From positions 44,025,461-44,089,460 of the forward strand of contig NC_056005.1 of the NCBI RefSeq assembly GCF_018446385.1: a stretch of 64,000 nt of DNA. Direction: 5' to 3'. The position numbers and the translations under genes are program-made. Below the pieces are notes generated by a model, which made no database searches, had not been told where the DNA came from, and was given only the letters and a program-made list of their open reading frames with translations. Position 1 is the first letter of the stretch. The number at the start of each line of letters is the position of its first letter. Source of the stretch: Zingiber officinale (lineage: Eukaryota > Streptophyta > Magnoliopsida > Zingiberales > Zingiberaceae). This document shows positions 7,361 to 61,401 of the stretch, piece by piece.

Positions 7361-7670
7361 TGTGAGCAAATAATCCGGATAAATTCAAATAAATCGGATA
7401 TGATAAGTTTTAGTTATAACGTTTCGTTTAATATTTTTGATAACTTAGCCTTTCCTATTTTATAGCTTACGTGGCATTATTTCTATGGTTTAAGTGATGT
7501 AAGATCTTATCACTTGTGGTGTATATATACAACACAAATGTGAATGGAAACAGCAGCACGACAAGATTAATTTTTCCCAAGCTACTACGTTTCTTTTTTG
7601 TTTTGTTTTTATCTTCTTTATTATTTTTGTGTGTATTGTCGGGGTGCTGCTCATAGATTCTGAACCAACA
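7361..7670 (+). repeat. 5' LTR, inner copia element
   Basis: 310 bases, TG...CA. A TATA-like stretch (GTGTATATATAC) lies near 7520, followed by a T-rich segment. It pairs with 11722-12031. Confidence 0.93.
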
Positions 7671-7672
7671 AT

Positions 7673-7685
7673 TGGTATCAGAGCG
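7673..7685 (+). other. Primer-binding site of the inner copia element
   Basis: TGGTATCAGAGCG, complementary to the initiator Met-tRNA 3' end, sits two bases after the 5' LTR. This is the usual arrangement in plant copia elements. Confidence 0.9.
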
Positions 7686-7725
7686 TTGGTAGTATAAGAC
7701 ATCCAAGGATCTACGATTCTATAAA

Positions 7726-9096
7726 ATGTCGAGCATCCCAGTAAAGGAGAACGGCGGAGTGCCATTTCCCTATCCGATGCAAAGTCCTCACAATTACACT
7801 GTGTGGGCGATAAAGACAGAGGCGATCCTTGATGCCCAGGGAGTCTGGGAGACGGTGGAGCCAGTGGAAGGAGCCCAGGTGGATGCAAAAAAGGACAAAA
7901 AGGCACGCGCATACATCTTGCAGTGTGTCCCCGAAGACATCCTTCTCCAAATTGCAACAAAGAAGACGGCGAAAGATGTCTGGGACAGCCTGAAGACGAG
8001 ATATCTTGGTAGTGATCGGGTGAAGAAGGCACGTATACAAACGTTGAAGAGCGAGTTTGACGCCCTCCGGATGAAAGAGACCGAGACGATTGATGAGTTT
8101 GCTGGCAAACTCAGCGCCCTAAGCAGCAAATTCTCCACCCTTGGAGCCACACTTGAAGATTCCTCGTTGGTAAAAAAATTGCTCGATTCTGTTCCTGATA
8201 AATTCTTCCCTATTGTTGCCGGCATTGAGCAGTTCTACGACCTTGAGTCTATACCATTTGAGGAGGCTATAGGGCGACTGAAGGCGTACGAGGAACGAAC
8301 GCTTCGATTACGCAGCAACACCAACGGCACTGAAGGAGAGCTCCTACTTACTCATGCCGAATGGCAAATGCGACAAAAGGGGAGTAGCGTGGACACTTCG
8401 TCAGGAGGCAAGGAACGTGGGTCCAACAGCTCTAATCATGGCAAAGGGCATGGGCGTGGGCGAGGGCGCGGTCGTGGTCGTGGTACTCAGCGCCAAGATA
8501 GTGCAGGAGGCACTAGCGGCAACAACAGTGACACTCGTGACAAGAGACACATAAAATGCTTCAATTGTGAGAAAATGGGGCATTATGCGTCTGAATGCTA
8601 CAGCAAGCGTCGTGGAGATGAGGCTCACCTCACTTGCGCCACCGATGAAGAGCCAGCACTAATGATGACCATGTTCCACGAAGAATCTCAGCGGCAGGAT
8701 ACCATCCTGCTCAGTGAAGAGAGGTTGCTACCGGAGGTGTACCGGGGCGTCAAGAAAGGTGAAGACAAAGACGTTTGGTACCTTGACAATGGTGCCAGCA
8801 ATCACATGACTGGACATCGCGAGAAGTTTCAAGAACTAGATGAAACTATCACCGGGAGGGTGAGGTTTGACGATGGATCAACCATTGAGATCATGGGCAA
8901 GGGGACGGCTGTGTTCGAATGCAAGAACGACGATCAGAAGACCCTCCACGAGGTATACTACATTCCGAAACTTTGTAGTAATATCATAAGCCTTGGTCAG
9001 TTGACAGAAGCTGGGAACGAGGTGCACATGGAAGGAGATACCATGAAGGTGATTGATAGGAGCGGGAAGCTCTTGATGCTGGTAAAGCGAACGTAA
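7726..9096 (+). CDS. copia Gag-protease part of the polyprotein (inner element), ends at a premature TAA
   Basis: 456 codons. An N-terminal copia Gag domain (NYTVWAIKTEAIL, VWDSLKTRYLG) is followed by a Gly/Arg-rich tract (about residues 240-255) and a CCHC zinc knuckle, CFNCEKMGHYASEC (about 276-289). The protease active-site region WYLDNGASNHMTG (about 344) follows. The TAA at 9094-9096 lies in frame with the downstream pol, only six bases before the next open stretch. It is therefore a single nonsense change within one Gag-Pol frame, not a normal terminus. A functional element would read through here as one polyprotein. Confidence 0.85.
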   Translation: MSSIPVKENGGVPFPYPMQSPHNYTVWAIKTEAILDAQGVWETVEPVEGAQVDAKKDKKARAYILQCVPEDILLQIATKKTAKDVWDSLKTRYLGSDRVKKARIQTLKSEFDALRMKETETIDEFAGKLSALSSKFSTLGATLEDSSLVKKLLDSVPDKFFPIVAGIEQFYDLESIPFEEAIGRLKAYEERTLRLRSNTNGTEGELLLTHAEWQMRQKGSSVDTSSGGKERGSNSSNHGKGHGRGRGRGRGRGTQRQDSAGGTSGNNSDTRDKRHIKCFNCEKMGHYASECYSKRRGDEAHLTCATDEEPALMMTMFHEESQRQDTILLSEERLLPEVYRGVKKGEDKDVWYLDNGASNHMTGHREKFQELDETITGRVRFDDGSTIEIMGKGTAVFECKNDDQKTLHEVYYIPKLCSNIISLGQLTEAGNEVHMEGDTMKVIDRSGKLLMLVKRT

Positions 9097-9102
9097 AATC
9101 GC

Positions 9103-11616
9103 TTGTACAAGATAACCTTGAAGACATTCAAGCAAGTCTGCCTCCAAGCAAGTCTAGAAGACCCCACCTGGTTATGGCATGCAAGGCTCGGACATGTAAA
9201 CTTTCATGACTTGAAGCTGTTGGGGGAGAAGAAATTGGCGGTTGGTGTGCCACTATTGCCCCAGACGAACAAGCTTTGCAAGGTGTGTGTGATCTCCAAA
9301 CATGCAAGATCGTCATTCCCGCACCAAGCAAACTTTAGAGCGACGAAGCTGTTGGAACTTCTCCATGCTGATATCTGCGGGCCAATTTCACCAAGTACAC
9401 TTGCTGGTAACAAGTATTTCTTTTTGATTGTTGATGATTGCACAAGGTGGATGTGGGTATTTGTCTTGATAGCAAAGAAAGATGCATTCCAAGCATTCAA
9501 GAAGTTCAAGTCCGTGACGGAGAACACAACTGAGTACAAGATCAAGACACTTCGGACAGACCGTGGCGGTGAGTTTCTATCCACGGAGTTCTCTCGATTC
9601 TGTGAAAATGAAGGAATTGAGAGGCACCTTTCGGCTCCCTACACACCGCAACAGAATGGCGTTGTGGAGCGTCGTAACCGCACAGTGATGGCTATGGCAA
9701 GATCTCTCCTCAAGGGTACACATATGCTGGCAAGGTTCTGGGGAGAGGCGGTTAGGCATGCTGTCTATCTGCTAAACCATCTCCCAACTAAAGTGCTAGG
9801 AGAACGTACTCCATTTGAAGCTTGGATGGGGAGAAAGCCACATCTTGCCCACTTGAAGGTGTTTGGTTGTATTGCCTATGCAAAAAATACAACCCCTCAC
9901 CTTAAGAAACTTGACGACAGAAGCTCACCTATGGTATACTTAGGAGTCGAAGAAGGCTGCAAAGCTCATCGTCTATTTGATCCAAGGCATAACACCGACG
10001 AGGTGATTGTTACTGCAGACATTGAGGCAGCGGCGGAAGATGTCACACCATCATCAAGTCTAGCTACCCCATCTTCGACAAGAGCATCAAGTCCGTCTAC
10101 ACCATCATCGAGCACCCAAGCAACTACCTCACCCGAGTCTCATGAAGGGCCAGTCCGTTATAGGTCCATTGCCGATATCTATGCCAACACTGAGGAAATA
10201 ATTGGTATTGATGAAGAGGAGAATGAGGTAATGCTGATGATGTCAGAAGAGCCGACCTGTTACCAAGAAGCTGCATCCGAGGCTTGCTGGTACGAAGCAA
10301 TGGAGGAAGAACTGAAGACTATTGAGATGAACAAGACCTGGACCCTAACTGAGCTCCCATTAGGCCACAAACCTATCGGCCTAAAATGGGTGTTCAAACT
10401 GAAGAAAGATTCAGCTGGAAAAGTGGTCAAGCATAAAGCAAGATTAGTTGCTAAAGGCTATGTGCAAAAACAAGGCATCGACTTTGAAGAGGTATTCGCA
10501 CCTGTCGCTAGACTTGATACTATTCGAGTCATTCTTGCACTTGCAGCAAATCGAAGCTGGGAGGTACACCATCTAGATGTGAAGTCAGCATTCCTTAACG
10601 GAGAGTTAGAAGAAGAAATATACGTCTCTCAACCGGAAGGGTTTGAGGTACAAAATCAGAAACATAAGGTGTACAGGTTATTCAAGGCCCTCTATGGACT
10701 GCGGCAGGCTCCACGAGCTTGGAACATGCGGCTGAACAGGAGTCTGGTAGAGCTCGGCTTCAAAAGATGTATTCAAGAACATGCAGTATATACAAGAGGT
10801 GAAGGAGAAGCAAGTATACTTGTTGAAGTGTATGTCGATGATCTCATCGTGACAGGAGGTAGCACAGAGAAAATCAACAAGTTCAAACAACAAATGATGA
10901 CAAAATTTAAGATGAGTGATTTGGGTCTTCTCTCCTATTACTTAGGGATTGAAGTGGAGCAACAGAAGAGCCGAATTTCACTTAGACAATCAGCTTATGC
11001 CAAGAAAATTCTATCTCAATTCAAGATGGCAGACTGCAATGCCACAAAGCATCCAATGGAACCCAAGACACAGTTGCATAAGGACCTGGAAGGGACTCCA
11101 GTTGACGCCACGGAGTACAGGCGCATTGTTGGTTGTCTGAGATATTTGCTTCACACACGGCCGGACCTGTCATATTCTGTTGGAATGGCGAGCAGATACA
11201 TGGAGAGGCCTACAATCATGCATCACAGGGTGGTCAAACAAATTCTCAGTGATTTAGCCGGCGATCTCGATGGAAGGAAAAGCACAAGTGGAATGACTTT
11301 CTATTTTAATGAAAGTTTGGTGTCCTGGAACTCACAGAAGCAGAAGACAGTGGCACTTTCATCTTGTGAGACAAAATTCATGGCAGCCACAACTGCAGCC
11401 TGCCATGCTTTGTGGTTGAGGAGCCTTGCCAGTGAATTGACAGGTGTAAAGCCAAAACCGGTAACTTTGTTTGTTGACAACAAATCCGCCATAGCTCTCA
11501 TGAAGAATCCGGTATTCCATGGTCGAAGCAAGCATATAGATACAAGGTTTCATTTTATCAGAGAATGCATTGAGAAGGGACAGATTGTGGTGGAGTTCGT
11601 TAATACCGGAGAATAG
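9103..11616 (+). pseudogene. copia integrase-reverse transcriptase-RNase H (inner element) with in-frame deletion
   Basis: Same frame as gag. It contains GAG-pre-integrase ([16 protein letters not shown]), an integrase core ([41 protein letters not shown]), reverse transcriptase ([38 protein letters not shown]) and RNase H ([20 protein letters not shown]). At about 11249 KQIL runs directly into [13 protein letters not shown]. The related element at 57785-58702 has 27 more residues at this point, so about 27 codons including the first RNase H strand are deleted in frame. A TAG at 11614-11616 replaces the residue after TGE, and the same frame continues to 11712. Confidence 0.88.
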
Positions 11617-11710
11617 CGAGCCGATGCGTTAACTAAAGCATTGCCAGGAGTGAAGTTAGCTGCCATGCGACAACTGCTCGGCATCCGTGATCTACAATCA
11701 TGTCCGGATT

Positions 11711-11721
11711 AGGGGGAGTAA
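11711..11721 (+). other. Polypurine tract of the inner copia element
   Basis: AGGGGGAGTAA lies immediately before the 3' LTR, as expected for the plus-strand primer. Confidence 0.8.
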
Positions 11722-12031
11722 TGTGAGCAAATAATCCGGATAAATTCAAATAAATCGGACATGATAAGTTTTAGTTATAACGTTTCGTTTAATATTTTTG
11801 ATAACTTAGCCTTTCCTATTTTATAGCTTACGTGGCATTATTTCTATGGTTTAAGTGATGTAAGATCTTATCACTTGTGGTGTATATATACAACACAAAT
11901 GTGAATGGAAACAGTAGCACGACAAGATTAATTTTTCCCAAGCTACTACGTTTCTTTTTTGTTTTGTTTTTATCTTCTTTATTGTTTTTGTGTGTATTGT
12001 CGGGGTGCTGCTCATAGATTCTGAACCAACA
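11722..12031 (+). repeat. 3' LTR, inner copia element
   Basis: 310 bases, TGTGAGCAAA to CCAACA. It differs from the 5' LTR by about three transitions. Confidence 0.93.
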
Positions 12032-12036
12032 ATGTT
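12032..12036 (+). repeat. Right target-site duplication (ATGTT)
   Basis: Identical to 7356-7360. The outer-element reading frame resumes just after it. Confidence 0.9.
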
Positions 12037-13811: not shown

Positions 13812-14583
13812 AGAGGACGCTAGCTACTACCACGTTCCAAGTTCACCGAGATTTTTCTTCAGTGTGATTCCTTTTGAATTGTGTAACAATTGCCCAGCGC
13901 ATTACTTGAGTTTGTTTTGTTAATTATTCGCATCCGAGGTTGCAACAAATGAGGTACATTCTTCTCTTACAATCATATAAATCGAACGAAATTTTTTTAA
14001 TCGACTTCTATCAGCCCAAAGCATGATGTTGTGAATTTGATCTTGAATCTTACACAACGTAACTGTGGAGAACGGAGCTACAGACCAAAATGTTGTCCTT
14101 GGGGATCAATTCGATCTTCTTTAAATTTGCTCAAGGTTTATTCGAAGGATGATACAGCAGATAAGTAAGAGGAATGAATCGTGAGTTAGGAAATTAGAAG
14201 ATAGAAAAGTTTGAGTACTAATTTTGATGCTATGTTCGAGTCTCAAAGTTATCACGAATATGATGCTAATTCATAGATCAAATGAGGTCTTGTATATACG
14301 ATAGTTGAGGTTTAGAAGAATCATTTAAGAGGTAAAAAAAAAGACAACATTTTTAAAAAAAAATGATGTCTTTTCAGTGTTATGTAATCTCAATTTTCTT
14401 ATAATGATCATTGATTCTGTGAGATTAGCATGAGCTATACTCCTTGATTTAAGTAAGTAGTTATTTCTCACTGGCTAGAGACATTATAATGCCGAGAGTT
14501 AAATGTTAATACTAGTTATAGTAATTAGTTCATTAGATTGACCTATTGTAAGACTTCAGATGATTCTCTACATATATGGATAT
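13812..14583. other. 3' flank of LOLITA-like gene and possible left part of an LTR
   Basis: The first few hundred bases probably include the LOLITA 3' UTR; no clear single poly(A) signal stands out. From about 14390 the sequence reads on across the CACTA insertion into similar-looking sequence at 28542, which suggests one interrupted LTR. No gene is seen. Confidence 0.45.
14581..14583 (+). repeat. Left TSD of the CACTA element (TAT)
   Basis: TAT precedes CACTA at 14584 and follows TAGTG at 28538. CACTA elements duplicate 3 bp. Confidence 0.75.
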
Positions 14584-14935
14584 CACTATAAAATAAATAC
14601 AATTTGGGGATGAAAATTAGGGACGAATAAAATTCGTTGCAAATTTGCGACTAATTTTGCAACGAACCCCTAATTCATCGCAAATTAGCAACGAAAATAG
14701 AAACGAAAGAAATTCGTCGCAAATTCGCAATAAATATATTTTAGTCGCAAAATTCGTTGCCAATCAGCGTCGAAAAATAACATTCGTGGCAAAAAATTAT
14801 TCATCGCAGAAGCAGAGATGAACAAATAAATTTTTGCAACAAATCATTGGTTTCATCGCAAATTGGCGATGAATATATTTTCGTCGCAAATTAGGGACGA
14901 ATTCCCGAGTTCGTCGCAAAATTTATATTTATTAA
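14584..14935 (+). repeat. CACTA left terminal inverted repeat and subterminal repeats
   Basis: Begins CACTATAAAATAAA. It then has many copies of GGGACGAA, TTCGTCGCAAA and CGCAAATT in alternating orientation, the expected binding-site-rich subterminal region. Confidence 0.75.
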
Positions 14936-14939
14936 GTGA

Positions 14940-17900
14940 TACTTTAAAAATTTGAAAGATGACCCTAGAGAGCTCGGAATGACACGAAATAAGTTTCTAT
15001 GGGTTCGTACCATTGTCCTCGTATTATTAGTGGGCTTAAACAAAATTTTTAACAAATATACAGATGTTTAAAAAACTTTTACGCCGAACGAGTAATAAAT
15101 ATTAAAATCTTGTTCCAAAAATTTATAAACATTGGCGTATTGGTTAAAAAATTATTTTGAGGTGAGTAATAAGATGAGGAGAATGATACGAATCCAAAGA
15201 AATTTGTTTCATGTCATTCCGAGCTCGCTAGGGCCATCTTCCAATTTTTAAAAGTTTAACGTAAAAAATAGATTTTAGGGATGAATTTGGAAATTCGTCC
15301 CAAATTAGGGACGAACTTCTGAGTTCGTCCCTGATTTGGGACGAATTTCGTGTTTGTCGCAAAAATTAATCTTTTGTAAAATCAAAATAAATGCATATAA
15401 AATATGGAAGATGGGCCTAGAGAGCTCGGAATCACATGAAACAAGTTCCTATGGGTTCGTATCGATCTTATGATCACAATGATGACCTCAAATAACTAAT
15501 AAAATTTTTTAATCGCAATAATAGTTAGATGGACTCTATAAGCCTTAAGACTTGGTGAAAAAGAGTTAGAGTTTGAAAATGATTAGGTGGTTTTGATATC
15601 CAAAAATCACTCACCTAAATATATTGTGTGAAAAAGATATTTGAGGTCATCATTGTGATCAGGAGATCGACACGAACCCATAAAAACTTGTTTCATGTGA
15701 TTCCGAGCTCTCTAGGTCCATCTTTCGTATTTTTTACGCATTTAATTTGATTTATGAAAAAATTAATTTTTGTGACAAACTTGAAATTCGTCCCAAATCA
15801 GGGACAAACTCAGAAGTTTGTCCCTAATTTGGGACGAATTTCAAGTTTGTCGCAAAAATCTGTTTTTTTAGGTTAAACTTATAAAAATTGGAAGATGTCC
15901 CTAGAGAACTCGGAATGACACGAAACAAGTTTCTATAAGTTCGTATCAATCTCATGATCTTACTAATGAGCCCAAACATAATTTTTAATCAATACACCAA
16001 TGTTAATAAATTTTTGCAAAAGAATCAAATATTTATTACTTGTTTGGGGTAAAAAATTTATAATCGTCAGTATATTTGTTAAAAATTATGTTTGACCCCA
16101 TTAATGAGATCAGGAGAACGATACGAACCCAAAGAAATTTGTTTCATGTCATTCCAAGCTCGCTAGGGCCATCTTCCAATTTTTAAAATTTAAGCTAAAA
16201 AAGAGATTTTAGGGACGAATTTGAAAATTCGTCCCAAATTAGGGACGAACTTCTGAGTTTGTCCCTGATTTGGGACGAATTTCGTGTTTGTCGCAAAAAT
16301 TAATTTTTAAAAAAATCAAAATAAATGCGTATAAAATACGGAAGATGGGCCTAGAGAGCTCGGAATCACATGAAACAAGTTCCTATGGGTTCATATCAAT
16401 CTCATGATCACAATGATGACCTCAAATAACTAATAAAATTTTTTAATCGTAATAATAGTTAGATGGACTCTATAAACCTTAAGACTTGGTGAAAAAGAGT
16501 TAGAGTTTGAAAATGATTAGGTGGTTTTGATATCCAAAAATCACTCACCTAAATATATTGTGTGAAAAAAATATTTGAGGTCATCTTTGTGATCAGGAGA
16601 TCGACACGAACTCATAAAAACTTGTTTCATGTGATTCTGAGTTCTCTAGGTCCATCTTTCATATTTTATACGCATTTAATTTGATTTATGAAAAAATTAA
16701 TTTTTGTGACAAACTTGAAATTCGTCCCAAATCAGGGACGAACTTCTGAGTTCGTCCCTGATTTGGGACGAATTTCAAGTTTGTCGCAAAAATATATTTT
16801 TTTAGGTTAAACTTATAAAAATTGGAAGATGGCCCTAGAGAACTCGGAATGACACGAAATAAGATTCTATGAGTTTGTATCAATCTCGTGATCTTACTAA
16901 TGGGCCCAAACATAATTTTTAATCAATACACCGATGTTAATAAATTTTTGCAACAAGAATCAAATATTTATTACTCCTTCGGGGTAAAAAATTTATAATC
17001 ATCAGTATATTTGTTAAAAATTATGTTTGACTCTATTAATGAGATCAGGAGAATGATACGAATCCAAAGAAATTTGTTTCGTGTCATTCCGAGCTCGCTA
17101 GGGCCATCTTCCAATTTTTAAAAGTTTAACCTAAAAAATAGATTTTAGGGATGAATTAGGAAATTCGTCCCAAATTAGGGACGAACTTCTGAGTTCGTCC
17201 CTGATTTGGGACGAATTTCGTGTTTGTCGCAAAAATGAATTTTTTGCAAAATCAAAATAAATGCGTATAAAATACGGAAGATGGGCCTAGAGTGCTCGGA
17301 ATCACATGAAATAAGTTCCTATGGGTTCGTATCGATCTCATGATCACAATGATGACCTTAAATAACTAATAAAATTTTTTAATCATAATAATAGTTAGAT
17401 GGACTCTATAAACCTTAAGACTTGGTGAAAAAGAGTTAGAGTTTGAAAATGATTAGGTAGTTTTGATATCCAAAAATCACTCACCTAAATATATTGTGTG
17501 AAAAAGATATTTGAGGTCATCATTGTGATCAGGAGATCGATATGAACCCATAGAAACTTGTTCATGTGATTCCGAGCTCTCTAGGTCCATCTTTCGTATT
17601 TTATACGCATTTAATTTGATTTACGAAAAAAATTAATTTTTGTGACAAACTTGAAATTCGTCCCAAATCAGGGACGAACTCAGAAGTTTGTCCCTAATTT
17701 GGGACGAATTTCAAGTTTGTCGCAAAAATATGTTTTTTAGGTTAAACTTATAAAAATTGGAAGATGGCCCTAGAGAACTCGGAATGACATGAAACAAGTT
17801 TCTATGAGTTTTTATCAATCTCGTGATCTTATTAATGGGCCCAAACATAATTTTTAATCAATACACCGATGTTATTAAATTTTTGCAAAAGAATCAAATA

Positions 17901-20900
17901 TTTATTACTCGTTCAGGGTAAAAAATTTATAATCGTCAGTATATTTGTTAAAAGTTATGTTTGACCCCATTAATGAGATCAGGAGAACGATACAAACCCA
18001 AAGAAATTTGTTTCGTGTCATTCCGAGCTCGCTAGGGCCATCTTCCAATTTTTAAAAGTTTAACCTAAAAAATAGATTTTAGGGACGAATTTGGAAATTC
18101 GTCCCAAATTAGGGACGAACTTCTGAGTTCGTCCTTGATTTGGGACGAATTTCGTGTTTGTCGCAAAAATTAATTTTTTGTAAAATCCAAATAAATGCGT
18201 ATAAAATACGGAAGATGGGCCTAGAGAGCTCGGAATTACATGAAACAAGTTCCTATGGGTTTGTATCGATCTCATGATCACAATGATGACCTCAAATAAC
18301 TAATAAAATTTTTTAATCGTAATAATAGTTAGATGGACTCTATAAACCTTAAGACTTGGAGAAAAAGGGTTAGAGTTTGAAAATGATTAGGTGGTTTTGA
18401 TATCCAAAAATCACTCACCTAAATATATTGTGTGAAAAAAATATTTGAGGTCATCATTGTGATCAGGAGATCGACACGAACCCATAGAAACTTGTTTCAT
18501 GTGATTCCGAGCTCTCTAGGTCCATCTTTCATATTTTATACGCATTTAATTTGATTTATGAAAAAATTAATTTTTGCGACAAACTTGAAATTCGTCCCAA
18601 ATCAGGGACGAACTCAGAAGTTTGTCGCTAATTTGGGACGAATTTCAAGTTTGTCGCAAAAATATGTTTTTTTTAGGTTAAACTTATAAAAATTGGAAGA
18701 TGACCCTAGAGAACTTGGAATGACATGAAATAAGTTTCTATGAGTTCGTATCAATCTCGTGATCTTACTAATGGGCCCAAACATAATTTTTAATCAATAC
18801 ACCGATGTTAATAAATTTTTGCAAAAGAATCAAATATTTATTACTCGTTCGGGTTAAAAAATTTATAATCGTCAGTATATTTGTTAAAAATTATGTTTGA
18901 CCTCATTAATGAGATCAGGAGAATGATACGAACCCAAAGAAATTTGTTTCGTGTCATTCCGAGCTCGCTAGGGCCATCTTCCAATTTTAAAAATTTAACC
19001 TAAAAAAGATATTTTAGGGATGAATTTGAAAATTCGTCCCAAATTAGGGACGAACTTCTGAGTTTGTCCCTGATTTGGGACGAATTTTGTGTTTGTCGCA
19101 AAAATTAATTTTTTTAAAAATCAAAATAAATGCGTATAAAATACGGAAGATGGGCCTAGAGAGCTCGGAATCACATGAAACAATTTCCTATGGGTTCGTA
19201 TCGATCTCATGATCACAATGATGACCTCAAATAACTAATAAAATTTTTTAATCGTAATAATAGTTAGATGGACTCTATAAACCTTAAGACTTGTTGAAAA
19301 AGAGTTAGAGTTTGAAAATGATTAGGTGGTTTTGATATCCAAAAATCACTCACCTAAATATATTGTGTGAAAAAAATATTTGAGGTCATCATTGTGATCA
19401 GGAGATCGACACGAACCCATAGAAACTTGTTTCATGTGATTCTGAGTTCTCTAGGTCCATCTTTCATATTTTATACGCATTTAATTTGATTTATGAAAAA
19501 ATTAATTTTTGCGACAAACTTGAAATTCGTCCCAAATCAGGGACGAAGTCAGAAGTTCGTCCCTGATTTGGGACGAATTTCAAGTTTGTCGCAAAAATCT
19601 ATTTTTTTAGGTTAAACTTATAAAAATTGGAAGATGATCCTAGAGAAATCGGAATGACACAAAACAAATTTCTATGAGTTCGTAACAATTTCATGATCTT
19701 ACTAATGGGCCCAAATATAATTTTTAATCAATACACCGATGTTAATAAATTTTTGCAACAAGAATCAAATATTTATTACTCGTTCGGGGTAAAAAATTTA
19801 TAATCGTCAGTATATTTGTTAAAAATTATGTTTGAACCCATTAATGAGATCAGGAGAACGATACGAACCTAAAGAAATTTGTTTCGTGTCATTTTGAGCT
19901 CGCTAGGGCCATCTTCCAATTTTTTAAAGTTTAACCTAAAAAATAGATTTTAGGGATGAATTTGGAAATTCGTCCCAAATTAGGGACGAACTTCTGAGTT
20001 CGTCCCTGATTTGGGACGAATTTCGTGTTTGTCGTAAAAATTAATTTTTTGTAAAATCAAAATAAATGCGTATAAAATACGGAAGATGGGACTAGAGAGC
20101 TCGGAATCATATGAAACAAGCTCCTATGGGTTCGTATCGATCTCATGATCACAATGATGACCTCAAATAACTAATAAATTTTTTTAATCATAATAATAGT
20201 TAGATGGACTCTTTAAACCTTAAGACTTGGTGAAAAAGACTTAGAGTTTGAAAATGATTAGGTGGTTTTGACATCCAAAAATCACTCACCTAAATATATT
20301 GTGTGAAAAAGATATTTGAGGCCATCATTATGATCAGGAGATTGACACGAACCCATAGAAACTTGTTTCATGTGATTCCGAGCTCTCTAGGTCCATCTTT
20401 GATATTTTATACGCATTTAATTTGATTTATGAAAAAATTAATTTTTGCGACAAACTTGAAATTCGTCCCAAATCAGGGACGAACTCAGAAGTTCATCCCT
20501 AATTTGGGACGAATTTCAAGTTTGTCGCAAAAATCTATTTTTTTAGGTTAAACTTATAAAAATTGGAAGATGGCCCTAAAAACTCAGAATGATACGAAAC
20601 AAGTTTCTATGAGTTTGTATCAATCTCGAGATCTTACTAATGGGCCCAACATAATTTTTAATCAATACACCGATGTTAATAAATTTTTGCAAAAGAATCA
20701 AATATTTATTACTCGTTTGGGTTAAAAAATTTATAATCATCAGTATATTTGTTAAAAATTATGTTTGACCCCATTAATGAGATCAGGAGAACGATACAAA
20801 CCCAAAGAAATTTGTTTCGTGTCATTCCGAGCTCGCTAGGGCCATCTTCCAATTTTTAAAAGTTTAACCTAAAAAACAGATTTTAGGGACGAATTTGGAA

Positions 20901-21040
20901 ATTTGTCCCAAAATAGGGACGAACTTCTGAGTTCGTCCCTGATTTGGGACGGATTTCGTGTTTGTCGCAAAAATTAATTTTTTGTAAAATCAAAATAAAT
21001 GCGTATAAAATACGAAAGATGGGCCTAGAGAGCTCGGAAT
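14940..21040 (+). repeat. Tandem array (~935-bp unit) of alternating long palindromes, first part
   Basis: The anchor TCACCTAAAT occurs at 15611, 16545, 17481, 18415, 19350 and 20286, giving spacings of 934-936. Each unit has two palindromes. Type A has arms of about 170 bases (outer arm ATTGGAAGATGGCCCTAGAG...) at about 14940, 15875, 16810, 17740, 18680, 19610 and 20545. Type B (arm ATACGGAAGATGGGCCTAGAG...) has arms of about 150 bases around a ~120-base loop, starting at about 15381, 16315, 17250, 18185, 19120, 20055 and 20990. A and B arms share a core resembling GAGCTCGGAAT-ACA-GAAACAAGTT, so they look like diverged copies of one ancestor. The linkers are the same GGGACGAATT inverted motifs as the element ends. 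Short minus-strand frames here are by-products of the repeats. Confidence 0.9.
21036..21040 (+). repeat. Left TSD of solo LTR (GGAAT)
   Basis: GGAAT directly precedes TGTAACGACC and recurs at 24003-24007. Confidence 0.9.
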
Positions 21041-21336
21041 TGTAACGACCCAATTTTCCTCATTAGGAGTTTTGAAAGTTCTTAAAAATATTTAGAAATA
21101 CTTTAGAAAAATTCTAGAGATTTTTAGAAATTTTTAGAGTATTTTTATGTAATTTTTGGAGGTCGTTTGGTATTTTTACCAAACGAAGAAAGTTTTAACA
21201 AAAAAATATCCAAGCTGAGGTTCGAACCAGCGACCCTTGACTCGGTCAAAACCCGACTGACCGGGTGGGCAAACAGATTTTTCTGTTTAGAATTGATAGC
21301 AAATTTATATGAAGATAGTAAACAGAATATTAAAGT

Positions 21337-21345
21337 TATAAAAAG
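21337..21345 (+). promoter_or_regulatory. TATA box of the solo LTR
   Basis: TATAAAAAG followed about 40 bases later by a CT-rich leader, typical of an LTR U3/R junction. Confidence 0.5.
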
Positions 21346-22454
21346 GGAGAACTTAGGGATTGAGTTAATCACCGAAGCCTAATTCCTCTCTTCCTCCTCT
21401 CGCGTGCGCGGCGATTCTGCCCGAGCGAAACCGAAGCCAAGATTAGGGTTGTCTCCGGCGCCGGCTTGAGGTGTTCTTCAAGGGGTTCTCTCCACCATCA
21501 CGACCTCTTCGTTGAGAGGAGCTCGGGAGCACGAGGGAGAGCCGGAACCGTGAGCCATCCGAAGCCCTAGCAGTTTCTTTGGGAGTGAGTCCAAGAACAC
21601 AAGTAAGTCGCTACTCACCTGCAGTAGGATAGTTCCGGATTTCGATTCGTTTTGGTGTTCTTTTGCTTTTGTTTCGAATTTTTTTTGTGAAGAATGTGGT
21701 TTAGGGCTTACTGCCGTGAGTTGTTAAGGAAGGGGGAAAGGGATTTTTGATTGGATTAGATTCTGAACTTTGCTTTTCCTGTTTTCAAATTATTCTGTGA
21801 AAGATATGGTGATGGGTTGCTGCCGTGAACCCTAAAGAAAGAAAGATAATGATAGGTTTGGTTTAAGCATGTGGATTGGTTTTCTTTCAAGCCTTGTAGT
21901 TGGTATTTTCATATTCCAGTTTAAATCCTGTCTGTTTGTTATCTTAATGGACATGTTTGGTTTATACAGAGCACGGTAAGTCTCAGGTTTTGTTGCTAGG
22001 CAGTGAACCTAGAATGGGTTAGATTAGTTTTGAGCATGTAGTTAGTTTTCTTCCTTACCGTTAGTTTTTGGTTGGGTGTTCTGAAATGAAGATGAACAAC
22101 TTTACCTGGAATATGTGGACCTTGATTCCTTTTAGTACAGATATAGAAGATACATAAGTAGGTTACTAGTAGTCTGAAATACCAGGTGTAGATCAAAACA
22201 AAGATTTCGGCCAGGAATTTATGTACTTATTCAGAAGAGCTATAATGGAAAAAAAATATATCCTCTTTCCTGGATAGTTATCTTAACTAGGAAAGTGATA
22301 TTATTTAAGTAGTTTGGTGCCCTATTAGTTTCTTTTAGAGGCTTATGGGTAATTGCAAGTAAAGTAAGATTAAGTTTTTCATAGGTTTTAAGCTTCAGCA
22401 GATTTTAGTTTTGTTTGTGCTATGCATTTGACATGATCAGTTAGTTTAAGAATA

Positions 22455-22690
22455 GTTAGGATTAGCATGGATGCAGATTTTTATTAAGCTAGAATGAAGA
22501 CTTCTGTTAAGTTAGTATGCAGATTTTTATTAAGCTAGTATGCAGATTTCTGTTAAGCAAGTGCAGATTTTGTTAAGCTAGTATGCAGATTTCTGTTAAG
22601 CTATTATGTAGATTTTTATTGAGCTAGTATGCAGATTTCTGTTAAGTATTAGTGCAGATTTTTGATAACCATTGTATGTGCAGATTTCTT
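22455..22690 (+). repeat. Imperfect ~27-bp tandem repeat inside the solo LTR
   Basis: About eight copies of a unit like GCAGATTTCTGTTAAGCTAG, with T/C and length variation. Confidence 0.75.
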
Positions 22691-24002
22691 TTGTATTCTA
22701 TGCATGATTATGTGTTACATAGTTAGTTTCATTCATAGATGCATACGAAAGATACCCTAACAGTATTTTGGGTTTGAGAAAAGTATAAGAAAGATAAAGA
22801 AAAGTATAAGAAAGATAAAGAAAAGAAAGAAATGGCCAAGGCCTTAAGTAAATCTCAAAGTCAAGACTTTAGGGATTTTTGCACACAAGGTGCTATTAAA
22901 ATGCCAAGGCATTTAAAGAAGAAGTAATTAAGATTATAAGTATTTTACTTTTAAGAAGAGGCTAGTACCCGACTTCCGAGGTTGTCGTTAAACAAATCCA
23001 GGTGTCCAATTCCGAGGTCTTGGCCCCGGTAGACCGAGGTCTGCTCTTTTAGGATTGGTGGCTCGCTACCCCAACCTATCAGGGAACACGCATAAGATGA
23101 TACTACGCCTGGGCCCAAGAAGAAGTTGATTATTATTTTGAAGTATTGTAAGTATAAGTTTTTGGACAAGTAAAACGAGTTTTACATAAACATAAAGTAT
23201 TAAAGATTAAGTTTAGAACAAATAAAATAAGATTCATATAGTTCTAAAAATCAGTAAGTTTAGTTCTTTATTCTACCATGTTTATCTAGTAGATGAGTAG
23301 TTTTCATGTTTACCTATTAGATGAGCAGCATGATTAACTATTAGAATTACATGAGTAGATTCCTTAGCTTTTCTTTGCTATTAGTTTGACATGAGCAGTT
23401 ATGTTTATGCTTTATTTCTTTTTAGAGCATATAGTTTCTAGTTCTTTTCGTATACCAGCACATTCGTGATTTTGTGAGTTAGATAGTGCTTACTAAGCAA
23501 ATTTTGCTTATAGACTACACTTCCTCTTACTGCAGATACAGGAAAGGGAAAGATATAGAAAGGAAGGCGACAAGGAGGTATTCGAAGGATGTGTGATGCC
23601 AGGACTATGGAAGCCTTGGGACTAGGAAAGAAGTTTTAATTTTAGTTTCCGCATTTTAGTTATTGTAAACATTTGAGTTGTATTTTAAGTGCATGTCATT
23701 TGAGATTATTCTGTTTAGATTGCATGTAAGATGAGTTCAGTTTAGTAAGTAGATATTTGTGTGTTGTTTTCTTTATTTTAAATTTATTATACTGCGTGGT
23801 TGATTGATATGTGTTCCAGCCGCTTGTGGCTGAGTATATATTGCATGTATTGTTGAATATGGTCACCGGTACAGGGGAGACTTTGCCGAAATTTTTCGGT
23901 AGGGTTTCCATTTGATTTTTAATCATACCGGTTAAGTAGAGTTGGTAGTTAAGTAACAGTCATCCTTAGAGTGTAGTAGTAGTAAGAAGGGTAGTCGTTA
24001 CA

Positions 24003-24765
24003 GGAATCACATGAAACAAGTTCCTATGGGTTCGTATCGATCTCATGATCACAATGATGGTCTCAAATAACTAATAAAAATTTTTAATCGTAATAATAGT
24101 TAGATGGAATATATAAACCTTAAGACTTGGTGAAAAAGAGTTAGAGTTTGAAAATGTTTAGGTGGTTTTGATATCCAAAAATCACTCACCTAAATATATT
24201 GTGTGAAAAAAATATTTGAGGTCATCATTGTGAACAGGAGATCGACACGAACCCATAGAAACTTGTTTCATGTGATTCCGAGCTCTCTAGGTCAATCTTT
24301 CATATTTTATACACATTTAATTTGATTTATGAAAAAATTAATTTCTGCGACAAACTTGAAGTTCGTCCCAAATCAGGGACGAACTCAGAAGTTCGTCCCT
24401 AATTTGGGGTGAATTTCAAGTTTGTCGCAAAAATCTATTTTTTTAGGTTAAACTTATAAAAATTGGAAGATGACCCTAGAGAACTCGGAATGACACGAAA
24501 CAAGTTTCTATGAGTTCGTATCAATCTCGTGATCTTACTAATGGGCCCAAACATAATTTTTAATCAATACACTGATGTTAATAAATTTTTGCATCAAGAA
24601 TCAAATATTTATTACTCGTTCGGGGTAAAAAATTTATAATCATCAGTATATTTGTTAAAAATTATGTTTGACGCCATTAATGAGATCAGGAGAACGATAC
24701 GAATCCAAAGAAATTTGTTTCGTGTCATTCCGAGCTCTCTAAGGTGATTTTCTAAATTTTTAGAA
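24003..24765 (+). repeat. Palindrome array, last part (end of palindrome B7 and all of A8)
   Basis: Continues type B where the solo LTR split it (TSD GGAAT at 24003-24007), with the B right arm to about 24320. A final type A palindrome follows, from about 24445 to 24760. The last arm diverges at 24745 and runs into GGGACGAAATT subterminal motifs. Confidence 0.85.
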
Positions 24766-25560
24766 TCACTTAAAAAAAATAGAAAGTTTGCGACGAAGTT
24801 TTACTTCGTCCCTAATTAGGGACGAAATTGGCAACGAATTGGTTTTCGTCCCAAAAATCACAATAATCCCGATCCCTACCGTGCCCTAATTATTTTTCCT
24901 CTCTTCTCCATCAGCTCGTGCGGCGGCGACGAACCTTCTGCCCTATTCCGGCCACGATCTCTAGCAAGTAAAGTTCATTTCTCCCCCTCTTTTTTCCCAA
25001 CCATACTAGAGCGTAAGGCGACGACCGCTGCTTGGTTGCGCCGGCTGTTCTTGCACGGCACGCACGGATCTCTGACCCCCTATATGCTGCAGTCGGGCCT
25101 CGGTGGTCGCTGGTGGCCTTGGCGGCCGCTGCCGGCCCAAGGTCGTTGCCAACCGCCTGGCGATGCTGGCTTGCCGGTCGCCGCCCCCCCTGTGATGCCT
25201 CGGGGGCTGCTGTCGGTCTCCTTCTGCCGTCAGCAGCTGTTGCCGGCAGAAGGACAGCCACTGGTGGCCTTGGTGGCCACTGTCGGCCGGTTGGCGACAT
25301 TGCCTTGCTTGTTGTCGGCCACCTATGACACCTAGGGGGTTGTTGCCAGTCTCGTGCTACTGTTGCCAGCCACTGCTGGCTCCTAGCTGCTGCTACTGAA
25401 CCCGGCAGTCGGCTATTGGCTGTTGCTTTCCATCGGTGTCGGAGGATATAATTATTTTTGAATCTTATATACAATTGTAAACATTTTATTGTTTCTTGTG
25501 TAGGTTTGTACACCGACGCAGTTTGGAGAGACACTCATTGTTGTTCTCCTTTGCAGGTAT
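24766..25560 (+). other. CACTA internal gene-like stretch with GC-rich block
   Basis: After subterminal-like motifs (24780-24870) comes a leader-like CCTAATTATTTTTCCTCTC, then a GC-rich block (about 24910-25440). It is open for about 200 codons on the minus strand and about 100 on the plus. None of the translations has a recognisable domain; they are dominated by Ala, Arg, Gly and Pro from GGC/GCC runs. This may be a first exon of a CACTA gene or captured genic sequence. No function is assigned. Confidence 0.35.
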
Positions 25561-27830
25561 ATGTATTTATACTTGTTTACTAATAATGATAGTAATATTG
25601 TTACTGTATTTGTCTATTGGACTATCTCTTGTTTTTATTTTGGTTGTTATATAGTATTTTCATATGTATGTTCACTTACTTCATATTATCATTAGTTTGT
25701 TGTCTAGAAGTTTTTTATTATTGTAATTTATTGTAAACAGACAAAATGCAGAATGAAAGAAGTTTTTTATTATTGTAATTTGTCAAATTCCTCCCGGTGA
25801 CGGTGATGATGGTGATGATGATGATGACGATGGTGGTGATTCTTGATAAATTTATGATAAATTTTATGTTTGAATTTTTTTCATGTCATGTTATAGTTGA
25901 TTCTATATTTTCATTTTACCTTGATACATTGCTTCTTATGTAATGTTTGCTATCTATATAAGATAACACTGCAAAACAATTCTACTACCTTATTATTAAT
26001 TTAGCTTTGTATCTTCATGTCCTTGCTCTTTTGATTGTTTTTTAGAACGCCTTACTGTGATGTGTTATACTAATTCCATGCTGCCTTTGCATAATTTTGA
26101 TGTTTGAATTACAATTATGTCATCTTTTTGATGCAGTGACTAGTTTAATTTGGTGATCATTCTTTTAAACCTTTCATAGAGTAACTATCTCTAATATTGA
26201 TTTGAGTTCTTTTGTCAATTCTTTTACCAGCATTTGTTATTATTTTTGTTGGCACTAGAAATCTTGTTCTAGTATAATCACATTAGTATATATGTAATAT
26301 ATATGCTAATATATATACCAATTAGATAAAGTAGAATAAGGAGCAAATATGGAACAAAATTATGAAGGGGGCTGATCAATTATATGATTTATCATTTGAG
26401 CAATGTAGTTCTCAACCCTGAAAGTTACATAACGATAAGCAAATACATATTGAAATATGAATCAGGAAGGCTTATGTTTGGCATATTCACTGAGTTGCAA
26501 TTTAAAGAGAATAAAGGGCGACATATAATCATCACTGTCAAGTCAGATTAGTGTCAACTATTTGGGATTAGCTGCAGTTCTTATCCCTCCATTGTACAAT
26601 TAGAACACATTACATATGAATGATTTGAACAAAAGATTTTGGCCAACATGGAAATAAGCAAAGCTAAACATAAGCAAATACGGGATCCACTCCATGATCA
26701 TTAAAAGGAGTGCATGTGGTCATACTCATTGAGGAACTATTTGAAGGTTCAAATGCAAGACTCGAAACAATTCGAAAGAAATCTATTCGGTTAGACGGTT
26801 TCAAACTAAAAATGATGTGATACTCTCCTAAAGAAACAGAGAAAGAATATTTAACAAATGATACTTTGAAAATATTCGCACATAGGAGATGTGAACATCT
26901 AACAACATTTTCTAAAAAGTGAAATAATGTAATAAATTCCACACCCAAGTGATAGAACAAGTAGATCCTCCAGATGCAATACAATCAAATGCATACCAAT
27001 TGAACAACAATCAACATGGTAGGGGGGATAACAGTGACTATTAGGAACTAATAGTGGATTTTATGAGTATATATGTAAAAATGTGAGTATACTGATGTGC
27101 CCTTTTTAAGAGCACTTATACACACATTTAACTATACAAAATTAACCACACAAGTAGTAAAAGGATTATCAATGTACTTATTTCATTATCAATTTGTTGA
27201 ACTTGTTGTTTGGATTTTGGTTATTTGTATATATGAACATGAGGCTTGAACAAAGGATATGAATTACAAACAACTTTAATTTCACATTGATACTTTGCAT
27301 TTTATGTCATGATGATACTTTGCATGTTATGACAAACAATCTTAGTAACAAATTTCATTCATGTATGTAAATGTTAGATACAGATATCATTAATATGTTT
27401 GATACATTTTTTTTTAGTTATAAATGTTATTTATTGTTTGTTTGTAATTTAACGCAGGAAAAGAAGCATGGAAGGCGACCGAAGCTCCTGAGACATAACG
27501 ATATGTATTTTATTTTCCTTTGGATGTCTTGTTACATTTGTTGTTTGGATTGTTATAGAACTTTCATGTATGATATTATAAGTTGTTAAACTTGTTTGGA
27601 TTTTGGTTAGTTGTATATATGAATATGATGTGTTTAGTTTTGGAATGATTTGTTTGGATATAAGATATATGGATTATGGATGTGTTGGATATGATGAGTT
27701 TAGTTTTGGGATGATTTGTTTGGATGTTGTATATGGATGTATTTGATATAAATTGTTGAAGATGTTGTAAGTGTAATATGTAAACAGAATAACATAAAAA
27801 TCAAAAAAAAGATTCTGGATTTTTTTTTAA
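25561..27830. other. CACTA interior, AT-rich, no transposase recognised
   Basis: Mostly AT-rich. Near 25796-25845 the plus strand has GGTGACGGTGATGATGG..., encoding a Gly/Asp run followed by a stop, possibly the 3' end of a lost CACTA gene. Near 26540-26590 there is a weak antisense resemblance to the 3' end of plant RTE LINEs. The open frames at 26664-26984 (minus) and 27371-27589 (plus) show no domain I recognise. Confidence 0.4.
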
Positions 27831-28538
27831 TTTTTGGGACAAATTTTGCGACAAATATGTTTTTGTCGCAAATTTATCGTAAATCTTTTGCGATTAATCA
27901 AAATTTGTCCCAGAATTCGTCGCAGATTTGGGACAAAATTAAGGTTTTCGTCGCAAATTAGGAACAACTTTTGGGACGAATTCAGATTCGTCCCAAAATT
28001 CGTCGCAAATAGCTTTTTTACCCAACGTCTTTAAAGCGACGTTTTTGGGACAAATCTAGGTTCGTCGTATATTTGCGACAAATCTGGATTCGTTCCAAAT
28101 TTGGGACGAATCTGCATTCGTCCCAAATTTGGGACGAAACCAGATTTGTCCCAAATTTGGGACGAAAATATTTTTTTTGTCGCAAATCTTCGAGTTTTTT
28201 TTTCCCTCTAGTCATTTGTAATTAGGCAACGTTTTTTGCGACGAAAAATTTTCGTTGCAAATTTGGGACAAAAGAATATGTTTGTCGCAGATATAAAATT
28301 ATGAAATTTGCAACGAAAAAATGTTCGTTGCAGATTTGCAACGAATTCTGCGACGAAAATTTAAATTTGTCGAAAATATTTCCAACGAAATTATGTATTC
28401 GTCGCTAACATTTTTGCAACACCATTTTTGGGACGAATATAAATTCGTCCCAAAATTCGTCGCAAAAAATTTTGCGACGAATTTTTTTATCAAATTCGTC
28501 CCAAATTTCGTCCCTAACTAGCAGTTTTTTTTGTAGTG
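27830..28538 (+). repeat. CACTA right subterminal repeats and terminal inverted repeat
   Basis: Dense GGGACGAAT/TTCGTCCCAAA and TTTGCGACGAA motifs in both orientations, many forming short perfect inversions. The block ends in TTTTTTTTGTAGTG, the inverse of the left end. Confidence 0.8.
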
Positions 28539-28541
28539 TAT
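28539..28541 (+). repeat. Right TSD of the CACTA element (TAT)
   Basis: Matches 14581-14583. Confidence 0.75.
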
Positions 28542-54940: not shown

Positions 54941-55980
54941 ACTTATTTTTTTAAATTTTTTTTTACAAATTAAAACTTAAATTTTTTTTACTTAAAAATT
55001 TATTTTAAAAATTAAAACTTAAATTTTTTAACTTAAAAATTTATTTTAAAAATTAAAACATAAATTTTTTTTATTTAAAAATTTATTTTAAAAATTAAAA
55101 CATAAATTTTTTTACTTAAAAAATTACTTTAAAAATTAAAACTTAAATTTTTTTACTTAAAAATTTATTTTAAAAATTAAAACTTAAATTTTTTTTACTT
55201 AAAAATATATTTTAAAAATTAAAACTTAAAATTTTTTACTTAAAAATTTATTTTAAAAATTAAAACTTAAATTTTTTTACTTAAAAATTTATTTTAAAAA
55301 TTAAAACTTAAATTTTATTACTTAAAAATTTATTTTAAAAATTAAAACTTAAATTTTTTTACTTAAAAATTTATTTTAAAAATTAAAACTTAATTTTTTT
55401 TTACTTAAAAATCTATTTTAAAAATTAAACTTAAAATTTTTTTCTTAAAAATTTATTTTAAAAATTAAAACTTAAATTTTTTTACTTAAAAATTTATTTA
55501 AAAAATTAAAACTTAAATTTTTTTTCTTAAAAATTTATTTTAAAAATTAAAACTTAATTTTTTTTTACTTAAAAATTTATTTTAAAAATTAAAACTTAAA
55601 TTTTTTTTACTTAAAAATTTATTTTAAAAATTTAAACTTAAATTTTTTTACTTAAAAATTAAAACTTAATTTTTTTTACTTAAAAATTTATTTTAAAAAT
55701 TAAAACTTAATTTTTTTTTCTAAAAATTTATTTTAAAAATAAAAAACTTAAATTTTTTCACTTAAAAATTTATTTAAAAAATTAAAACTTAATTTTTTTT
55801 TACTTAAAAATTTATTTTAAAAATTAAAACTTAAATTTTTTTAACTTAAAAATTTATTTTTTAAAACTTATTTTTTTTAAATTTTATTTTTTTTAACTTA
55901 AAAATTTATTTTAAAAATTAAAACTTAATTTTTTTTTAACTTAAAAATTTATTTTAAAAATTTAAATTATTTTTTTTTTC
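54940..55980 (+). repeat. AT-rich ~41-bp satellite between gag and pol
   Basis: About 24 copies of a unit like TTACTTAAAAATTTATTTTAAAAATTAAAACTTAAATTTTT, varying mainly in T-run length. Each unit is a near-palindrome (TTAAAAATT / AATTTTTAA). Confidence 0.93.
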
Positions 55981-60544: not shown

Positions 60545-60970
60545 CTAGAGAACGAGCTACCGAGCCCTCTCTGACCTAGTCCAGAGAACGAGCTACCGAG
60601 CCCTCTCGGACTTCCACGTCCGGTCCAGAGAACGAGCTACCGAGCCCTCTCTGACCTAGTCCGGAGAACGAGCTACTGAGCCCTCTCCGACTTCCACGTC
60701 CGGTCCAGAGAACGAGCTACCGAGCCCTCTCTGACCTAGTTCGGAGAACGAGCTACCGAGCCCTCTCTAACTTTGTCTGGTCCAGAAAACGAGCTACCGA
60801 GCCCTCTCTGACCTAGTCCGGAGAACGAGCTACCAAGCCCTCTCTGACTCCATCCAGTCCAGAGAACGAGCTACCGAGCCCTCTCTGACCTAGTCCGGAG
60901 AACAAGCTACCGAGTCCTCTCCAACTCCATCCAGTCCAGAGAACGAGCTACCGAGCCCTCTCTGACCTCC
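60545..60970. repeat. ~39-bp tandem repeat, about eleven copies
   Basis: Core GAGAACGAGCTACCGAGCCC, with spacing alternating between roughly 36-38 and 40-44 because of two spacer types (TGACCTAGTCC and GACTTCCACGTCCGGTCC). Confidence 0.9.
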
Positions 60971-60971
60971 C

Positions 60972-61205
60972 ATGCCAAGCTTCCATACTTGGTCTTTTCC
61001 CCGTGCCAAGCTCCCTGCTTGGACTTTTCCCGTGCCAAGCTCCCTACTTGGACTTTTCCGTGCCAAGTCTCCATCCTTGGACTTTTCCCGTGCCAAGCTC
61101 CCTGCTTGGACTTTTCCCGTGCCAAGTCTCCATACTTGGACTTTTCCCGTGCCAAGCTCCCTGCTTGGACCTTTCCATGCCAAGTCTCCATACTTGGACT
61201 TTTCC
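60972..61205. repeat. ~30-bp tandem repeat, eight copies
   Basis: Units like TGCCAAGCTCCCTGCTTGG + ACTTTTCCCG alternate with TGCCAAGTCTCCATACTTGG. Each unit is an imperfect palindrome (CCAAG...CTTGG). Confidence 0.9.
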
Positions 61206-61401
61206 CGAATCAGGTCAACACAAGTCGGGTCAACCAAGTCAACCTTGACCAAAGGTTGCACCCACAATCCCCCAAGTTCCTATTCTTGTCAAACATCAAA
61301 ATATAACTTCTCTATTCTTGTCAAACATCAAAATATACCTCGAGTCAGGTCAACTCGAGTCGGGTCACCCAGGTCAACCTTGACCTAAGGTTGCACCAAC
61401 A

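Follow-up and report, generated by a model that had tools for sequence, protein, structure and literature searches.

The subterminal repeats of CACTA transposons are known as clusters of short binding motifs at the element ends. In soybean Tgmt* (PMC2613891), an element with En/Spm-type CACTA terminal inverted repeats (TIRs), a 3-bp target site duplication (TSD) and asymmetric subterminal regions, the two borders hold 28 repeats of a motif of at most 17 bp, repeated in both orientations and able to form small stem-loops. Here we describe a CACTA element in a 64,000-nucleotide stretch of the Zingiber officinale genome (contig NC_056005.1, positions 44,025,461 to 44,089,460; the whole stretch is called the window below) that is like Tgmt* in its TIRs, its 3-bp TSD and its asymmetric subterminal regions of short motifs in both orientations that can form small stem-loops. 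In contrast to Tgmt*, its motif clusters also run through a 7-kb palindrome array with arms of ~175-205 nt and an AB higher-order repeat, so that the module is a multi-kilobase palindromic higher-order repeat, and relatives within the one genome rebuild it in differing patterns. We suggest, with a probability of about 0.5, that in this CACTA lineage the 5' control region has been enlarged into the array.

CACTA elements with internal arrays, CACTA-derived satellites and a fold-back microRNA in a CACTA element are in print (PMC8978399, PMC7320549, PMC3459959). The Jozin element of Chenopodium quinoa likewise carries a long tandem array (32.5 x 171 bp) inside a CACTA element, in several copies (PMC8978399). 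However, the Jozin array lies near the 3' end, consists of simple 171-bp monomers and was judged to be captured, whereas the window array lies at the 5' side, is palindromic with A and B alternating, and is built with the element's own motifs. CficCl-61-40 (PMC7320549) is a further case of CACTA sequence seeding tandem repeats, the source there being a ~40-bp tnp2 fragment, whereas the module of the window element is non-coding, subterminal and retained in place; the same paper also mentions an Arabidopsis En/Spm-like case and the Afa and TM-2 repeats. The rice miR820 locus is a fold-back sequence inside a CACTA element as well, but a single one, with OsDRM2 homology and small RNA shown (PMC3459959), while the window has an array of fold-backs. 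Maize Mu killer is, like the array, a long inverted repeat of transposon origin, yet it inverts part of mudrA, carries TIRA copies and is one locus (PMC3440606), whereas the array recurs in many element copies. Among the open-licence papers listed in our literature searches we saw none describing a palindromic higher-order array on the 5' side of a CACTA lineage.

Structure of the palindrome array

An initial annotation of the window had described alternating long palindromes inside a CACTA transposon, and on both points it was correct. In the array 15 palindromes, eight of type A and seven of type B, alternate strictly as A(BA)7 at a unit spacing of 933-936 bp. The extent given for the array required revision, as it runs from ~14906 to ~24806 and is broken by a 2962-bp insertion (Table 1); the array proper is therefore ~6.9 kb long. 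The arms of A2-A7 span 202-205 aligned columns including half-junctions, are 81-85% identical and enclose a loop of 36-37 nt, and the B arms span 173-179 columns, are 88-91% identical and enclose a loop of 137-143 nt. Copies A2-A7 are 93-95% identical to one another and the B copies 94-97%. The edge copies A1 and A8, with arms of 149 and 176 columns (79-80% identical) and loops of 47 and 37 nt, are diverged, at 0.64-0.84 to the other A copies. Since A and B can be aligned over their whole length, with a mean A-B arm identity of 0.74-0.79, they are old duplicates, as the annotation had proposed. The predicted fold of one A+B unit reaches -526.8 kcal/mol and those of single palindromes -244 and -281.5 kcal/mol, and folding z-scores were -30 for B4 and -27 for A4 (100 shuffles each) and -52 for A4+B4 (20 shuffles), well outside what chance would give. 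No match was obtained in a pattern scan of viral contigs with the arm core, a scan that is uninformative for a plant repeat, or in an Rfam scan of the window at gathering thresholds.

The joints between palindromes were also said to share inverted motifs with the element termini, and the counts agree with this. The motif G[GC]GAC[GA]AA occurs 72 times in the array (both strands), and all 72 copies lie within 60 nt of one of the 14 junction centres used in the count, where 0.3 are expected from mononucleotide shuffles. Outside the array there are 38 copies: 5 in the left terminal and subterminal region (LEFT), 3 in the cluster that closes the array, 1 in 24861-27830 and 29 in the right subterminal and terminal region (RIGHT). 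None was found on either strand of the long terminal repeat (LTR) insertion or of two 2-kb flanks. The junctions consist of GGGACGAA dyads at ~30-bp spacing, which are common to the array and the element ends, and by blastn they are similar to 28069-28186 of the right end.

The order of parts in the window element is LEFT, palindromes, a small motif cluster, a GC-rich leader, an AT-rich interior and RIGHT, which places the array in the 5' subterminal region, in line with the initial annotation. The leader is likely to be a 5' untranslated region or first exon. The window copy arose by internal deletion, since it retains the ATG at 25746 with the opening codons of the transposase ORF and has lost the coding segment beyond them, ~5.55 kb in the relatives C22a and C12b; ten open reading frame (ORF) pieces of 24820-27673 gave no Pfam match.

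Assignment to the CACTA superfamily rests on several features. The TIRs start with CACTA, C6a and C8a each having one altered base in the left CACTA; 3-bp TSDs match in five of the five elements with both ends (window TAT, C22a CAT, C11a AAG, C12a CCA, C5a TAA); and Tnp2 (Transposase_21) is encoded by the coding family member C22a. Repeated subterminal motifs are present at both ends of the window element, as putative sites for a TNPA-like protein.

Array loci across the genome

We searched the 3.09-Gb, 211-contig assembly with the 935-bp unit. At least 463 matches were obtained, with at least 28 loci among the matches listed (the window and others, counted by hand); the best 30 of 2174 candidates were scored, and free arrays of lower identity may lie beyond these. 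The assembly is presumably phased, and if so, alleles may be included among the 28 array loci. Ten window-family loci besides the window were read in detail, 20 kb each. LEFT is followed by alternating A and B palindromes in all ten, C2a having lost one B. To the right of the array the leader is present in nine, C7a being interrupted within its array; the leader is also present in C2b, C5a and C9t. Copies differ in their count of B palindromes, between 3 and 7: seven in the window, six in C15a (the first partial) and C12a, five in C11a and C13a, four in C6a, C8a, C22a and C2a (plus the deleted one), and three in C12b. C2b has six B palindromes and an additional A at the end.

The left flanks (~1.1 kb) of 13 loci have no long high-identity match in common, and these loci are therefore separate insertions. 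The weaker matches were 702 nt at 73% between C2a and C7a, 119 nt at 77% between C13a and C8a, and, between C22a and C6a, several stretches at 69-78%, the longest of 235 nt. The flanks of C22a and C6a also hold A/B-like stretches at 67-73%, and the sequence suggests that these two elements inserted into or beside related arrays. An extra 10.5-kb segment in C8a contains a second transposase-associated-like ORF (element-oriented 14061-15442), probably a nested CACTA element as judged by eye.

A search with the left end, in which the best 40 of 714 candidates were scored, was matched to the array loci by coordinates. The alternative raised in the initial annotation, an ordinary satellite unlinked to CACTA ends, is not what was observed: the left end directly adjoins the array in 25 of the 28 array loci among the matches listed, 24 of them with the end at most 0.8 kb away by coordinates and C21 by direct reading. 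At C2:30145472 the left end is 22 kb from the array; C12:6420372 has a right end, and the 1.5 kb read there contain no left end; and at C17:110270308 a left end is missing from the 1.4 kb read, nor is an end of either side among the listed ends. Conversely, 35 of the 40 left ends listed adjoin an AB- or ABA-type array and one has an array 22 kb away; 25 belong to window-type array loci, counting the one 22 kb apart, and 11 adjoin the ABA type. At two more, the 1 kb read contains a complete or partial A palindrome, namely C14:61859449, with ~100 nt of A beside the left end, and C1:167420820, with one A palindrome followed by sequence that matches none of the features. C1:16849111 and C19:19967107 were left out of this tally.

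Arrays in coding and distant relatives

C22a (C22:62238548-62251868; 13,321 bp) is a coding copy with a 5A/4B array. Its first ORF contains Transposase_21 (PF02992, 1.1e-79) and Transpos_assoc, and a second ORF contains DUF4216; the other Pfam scores were 3.4e-23 for PF13963 and 3.3e-21 for PF13952. In the copies read, whether coding or deleted, the array sits between the left end and the leader of the transposase gene, and the distance from the end of the array to the transposase ATG is 946 bp in the window and 919 bp in C22a. A search with the transposase gave 77 listed matches, the best of 10218 candidates. Seven of those listed reach at least 93% identity, and six of the seven adjoin a listed array, C1:44600977 being absent from the listed arrays.

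Three more distant relatives were fetched, with transposase identities of 96, 87 and 82%, and palindrome arrays of differing periods lie upstream of the transposase ORF in all three. C9t (96%) has four ABA units and a final A, and C5a (8,686 bp) likewise reads ABA ABA ABA A; the ABA unit is that of a sister subfamily. C19t (87%) has mostly 467/423/422-bp monomers, with one irregularity, and arms that are 71-78% alike. In the arm tree the C19t arms of both sizes group together (95/91), and its monomers are thus related to the window A and B palindromes without being their orthologues. In C20t (82%) one of the periods is ~790 bp, the arms of two segmented monomers are ~73% alike, and numerous palindrome centres score 94-174, where a single shuffled control reached at most 30. 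Rows of this kind, in other patterns, are thus found in relatives across the genome, and for this reason the array looks like a lineage-wide module upstream of the transposase ORF, repeatedly rebuilt and a built-in part of the lineage rather than a one-off. The earlier view of a single CACTA family was right as to CACTA but understated the case, as arrays recur in several subfamilies.

Evolution of the palindrome arms

Relative to consensus, the window array has 85 substitutions in A2-A7, 54 of them C>T or G>A, and 81 in B1-B7, 38 of them of this kind, and the CpG substitution rate is 3.5-4 times that at CHH. These C>T-rich, CpG-biased changes are consistent with DNA that has probably long been methylated. 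Stem changes were then compared among 33 A and 42 B copies from the window family. Distinct one-sided changes led to G-T in 94 cases and A-C in 86 (p 0.60), with no strand asymmetry, and the rates in arm and loop were.0283 and.0337 for A and.0249 and.0144 for B. The GU-tolerant, strand-asymmetric stem changes that mark a selected RNA hairpin were therefore not seen in the window family.

Between palindrome types and subfamilies the two arms have changed together. Two-sided compensated changes exceeded independence in 8 of 12 comparisons (p < 0.002), comparisons that share sequences and are not independent of one another. We observed 8 against 1.0 expected for W_B/C9_B, 15 against 2.0 for W_A/W_B, and 10 against 2.4 for W_B/C19_B, where the A and B names in C19t follow monomer size and order so that window and C19t are compared as non-orthologues; the other five significant comparisons gave 9 against 1.1, 7 against 1.8, 7 against 1.7, 15 against 3.6 and 10 against 2.9. 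CpG hot spots fail to explain these changes, since 30 of the 62 in six listed comparisons are transversions and 6 are CpG-context transitions. In the arm tree the C9_B arms group together (93/94), while type A of the window and C2b, a recent split, groups by arm. Between subfamilies, then, an arm tends to be closer to its partner in the palindrome than to the corresponding arm elsewhere. Our reading is that the co-evolution probably reflects occasional arm-to-arm exchange at the DNA level. The co-evolving arms, the lack of a signal of RNA-pairing selection within the family and the 71-78% identity of the distant arms together point to DNA-level homogenization with tandem amplification at the motif-cluster junctions.

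The outermost arms are orthologous between window-family copies (0.946 and 0.940). Two observations on the arms were set aside. A1L and A8R grouped at first (82/69), as if from a founder palindrome, but with more elements the first-left and last-right arms were 0.72 alike and ungrouped, and the idea was dropped. Compensatory doubles within the window numbered 3 in A2-A7 (1.1 expected) and 2 in B1-B7 (0.8 expected) and were not used as evidence; those of A2-A7 were discounted because two of the three are one C-G>T-A pair at a CpG.

Origin and role of the array

How an enlarged 5' control region may have arisen is suggested by the junctions. Because near-identical motif clusters flank every monomer, unequal exchange or replication slippage between clusters could duplicate monomers, A and B presumably forming first and AB or ABA units afterwards. 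Misaligned exchange between clusters would add or remove monomers, which fits the variable unit number and the orthologous edges, and exchange between the two arms would keep the palindromes alike at the DNA level. By analogy with En/Spm subterminal repeats (PMC2613891), the clusters are most likely binding sites for a putative DNA-binding protein of the element itself, and those at the junctions would be extra binding clusters. The array would multiply such sites beside the transposase gene, since it has 72 motifs and the remainder of the window element 38, and a cis effect on end synapsis or on the expression of the transposase may follow.

Several points weigh against this reading. Both the cis role and the binding protein are putative, and if transcription started in the left end the array would lie inside the transcript. 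No excess of compensated changes was seen in 4 of the 12 arm comparisons: W_A/C2b_A and C9_A1/C9_A2 with 0 each (expected 0.1 in one and 0.4 in the other), W_B/C2b_B with 1 (expected 0.1) and C19_A1/C19_B with 4 (expected 1.7, p 0.087). The permutation null ignores site rate differences mirrored in both arms, and arm co-evolution could also reflect selection on a long time scale. The three distant relatives, C9t, C19t and C20t, were hand-picked from the 77 listed matches, and C17x and C16x (10 kb), which contain the right part of the element only, say nothing on the absence of an array.

Alternatively, the array could be an internal satellite with no role that grows and shrinks by unequal exchange, as motif clusters and palindromes recombine easily. 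This is possible but not favored: it suits the variable unit number, the homogenized central units with edge arms that are diverged from them yet orthologous between copies, the substitutions like those of long-methylated repeats, and stems that evolve faster than loops in B and only slightly slower in A, whereas a neutral array might have vanished in some lineage, and arrays instead stand upstream of the transposase ORF in all three relatives fetched, down to 82% transposase identity, with the window-array motifs confined to junctions. Capture of a host satellite, as proposed for the Chenopodium quinoa 171-bp array described within CACTA elements (PMC8978399), would suit C17:110270308, which has no end in view, and yet it is highly improbable given that 25 of 28 listed loci directly adjoin a left end and that the junctions are made of the element's own subterminal motif.

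The initial annotation had favored a source of hairpin RNA, by analogy with Mu killer. Array transcripts would fold into a chain of hairpins and be diced to 21-24-nt RNAs, and these would silence either the family itself or a host gene, the latter in the manner of miR820. The very stable predicted folds, the arm co-evolution between subfamilies, the precedent of miR820 inside a rice CACTA element (PMC3459959) and the correlation of predicted transposon hairpins in maize, CACTA included, with small RNAs (PMC10760457) are in keeping with such a source. We nevertheless consider it unlikely, since stem changes are strand-symmetric, stems change only slightly more slowly than loops in A and faster in B, arm identity falls to 71-78% in C19t and in the pair of segmented monomers of C20t, and the transposase ORF begins downstream of the array. 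The parallel with Mu killer is also weak, because the Mu killer hairpin carries transposase sequence (PMC3440606) and the window arms match none; the ten palindrome types had no match to the C22a coding sequence by blastn or tblastn. More doubtful still is a combination of both roles, in which the array would be a permanent, self-renewing organ, upstream of the transposase gene in a whole CACTA clade, by which the element tunes its own activity, a cis platform with dozens of binding clusters that also feeds double-stranded RNA into silencing, with unit number as the dial.

Whatever its role, the array forms a natural series, from 3 to 7 B palindromes, AB or ABA, coding or deleted, which would allow silencing and transposition to be measured against the number of binding sites or hairpins. 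The array also suggests how transposon ends may turn into satellite-like arrays whose arms homogenize each other.

Features of the window

Table 1. Coordinates of the CACTA element, its parts and the insertion in the window
Feature	Position	Strand	Remarks
CACTA element	14584..28538	+	13,955 bp including LTR insertion; read directly
Element ends	14584..28538	+	left CACTATAAAATAAA, right CACTACAAAAAAAA; read directly
TSD of element	14581-14583 and 28539-28541		TAT; read directly
LEFT, left terminal and subterminal region	14584..14925	+	with GGGACGAA/GCGACGAA motifs
Array, first part	14906..21040	+	A1 B1 A2 B2 A3 B3 A4 B4 A5 B5 A6 B6 A7 and start of B7
Junction cluster (example)	15275..15370	+	GGGACGAA..TTCGTCCC dyads, ~30-bp spacing
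Palindrome B1 (type B example)	15320..15812	+	arms 15320-15497 / 15635-15812, 89%
Palindrome A2 (type A example)	15813..16253	+	aligned arms 15813-16015 / 16052-16253, 82%
Insertion of solo-LTR form	21041..24002	.	2962 bp, TGTAACGACC...GTCGTTACA; 5-bp TSD GGAAT; inside B7, outside array proper
Array, last part	24003..24806	+	remainder of B7 and A8
Leader-proximal motif cluster	24791..24860	+	closes array
GC-rich leader	24870..25450	+	61% GC; common to family copies
Start of transposase ORF	25746..25764	+	start codon and first codons
RIGHT, right subterminal and terminal region	27831..28538	+	29 motifs

Sequences similar to the 2962-bp insertion recur in the genome, several of them as pairs 3-8 kb apart. 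Elsewhere in the window, a Copia-like element at 7361-12033 is bounded by 312-bp direct repeats (7361-7672 and 11722-12033, 99% identical), with long gag-pol-like ORFs between them as judged by eye. An AT-rich 41-bp tandem array of 17 copies lies at 54953-55660 inside a 2-kb block of 17% GC, and two neighboring minisatellites, with periods of 77 bp and 58/117 bp, were observed at 60547-61207.

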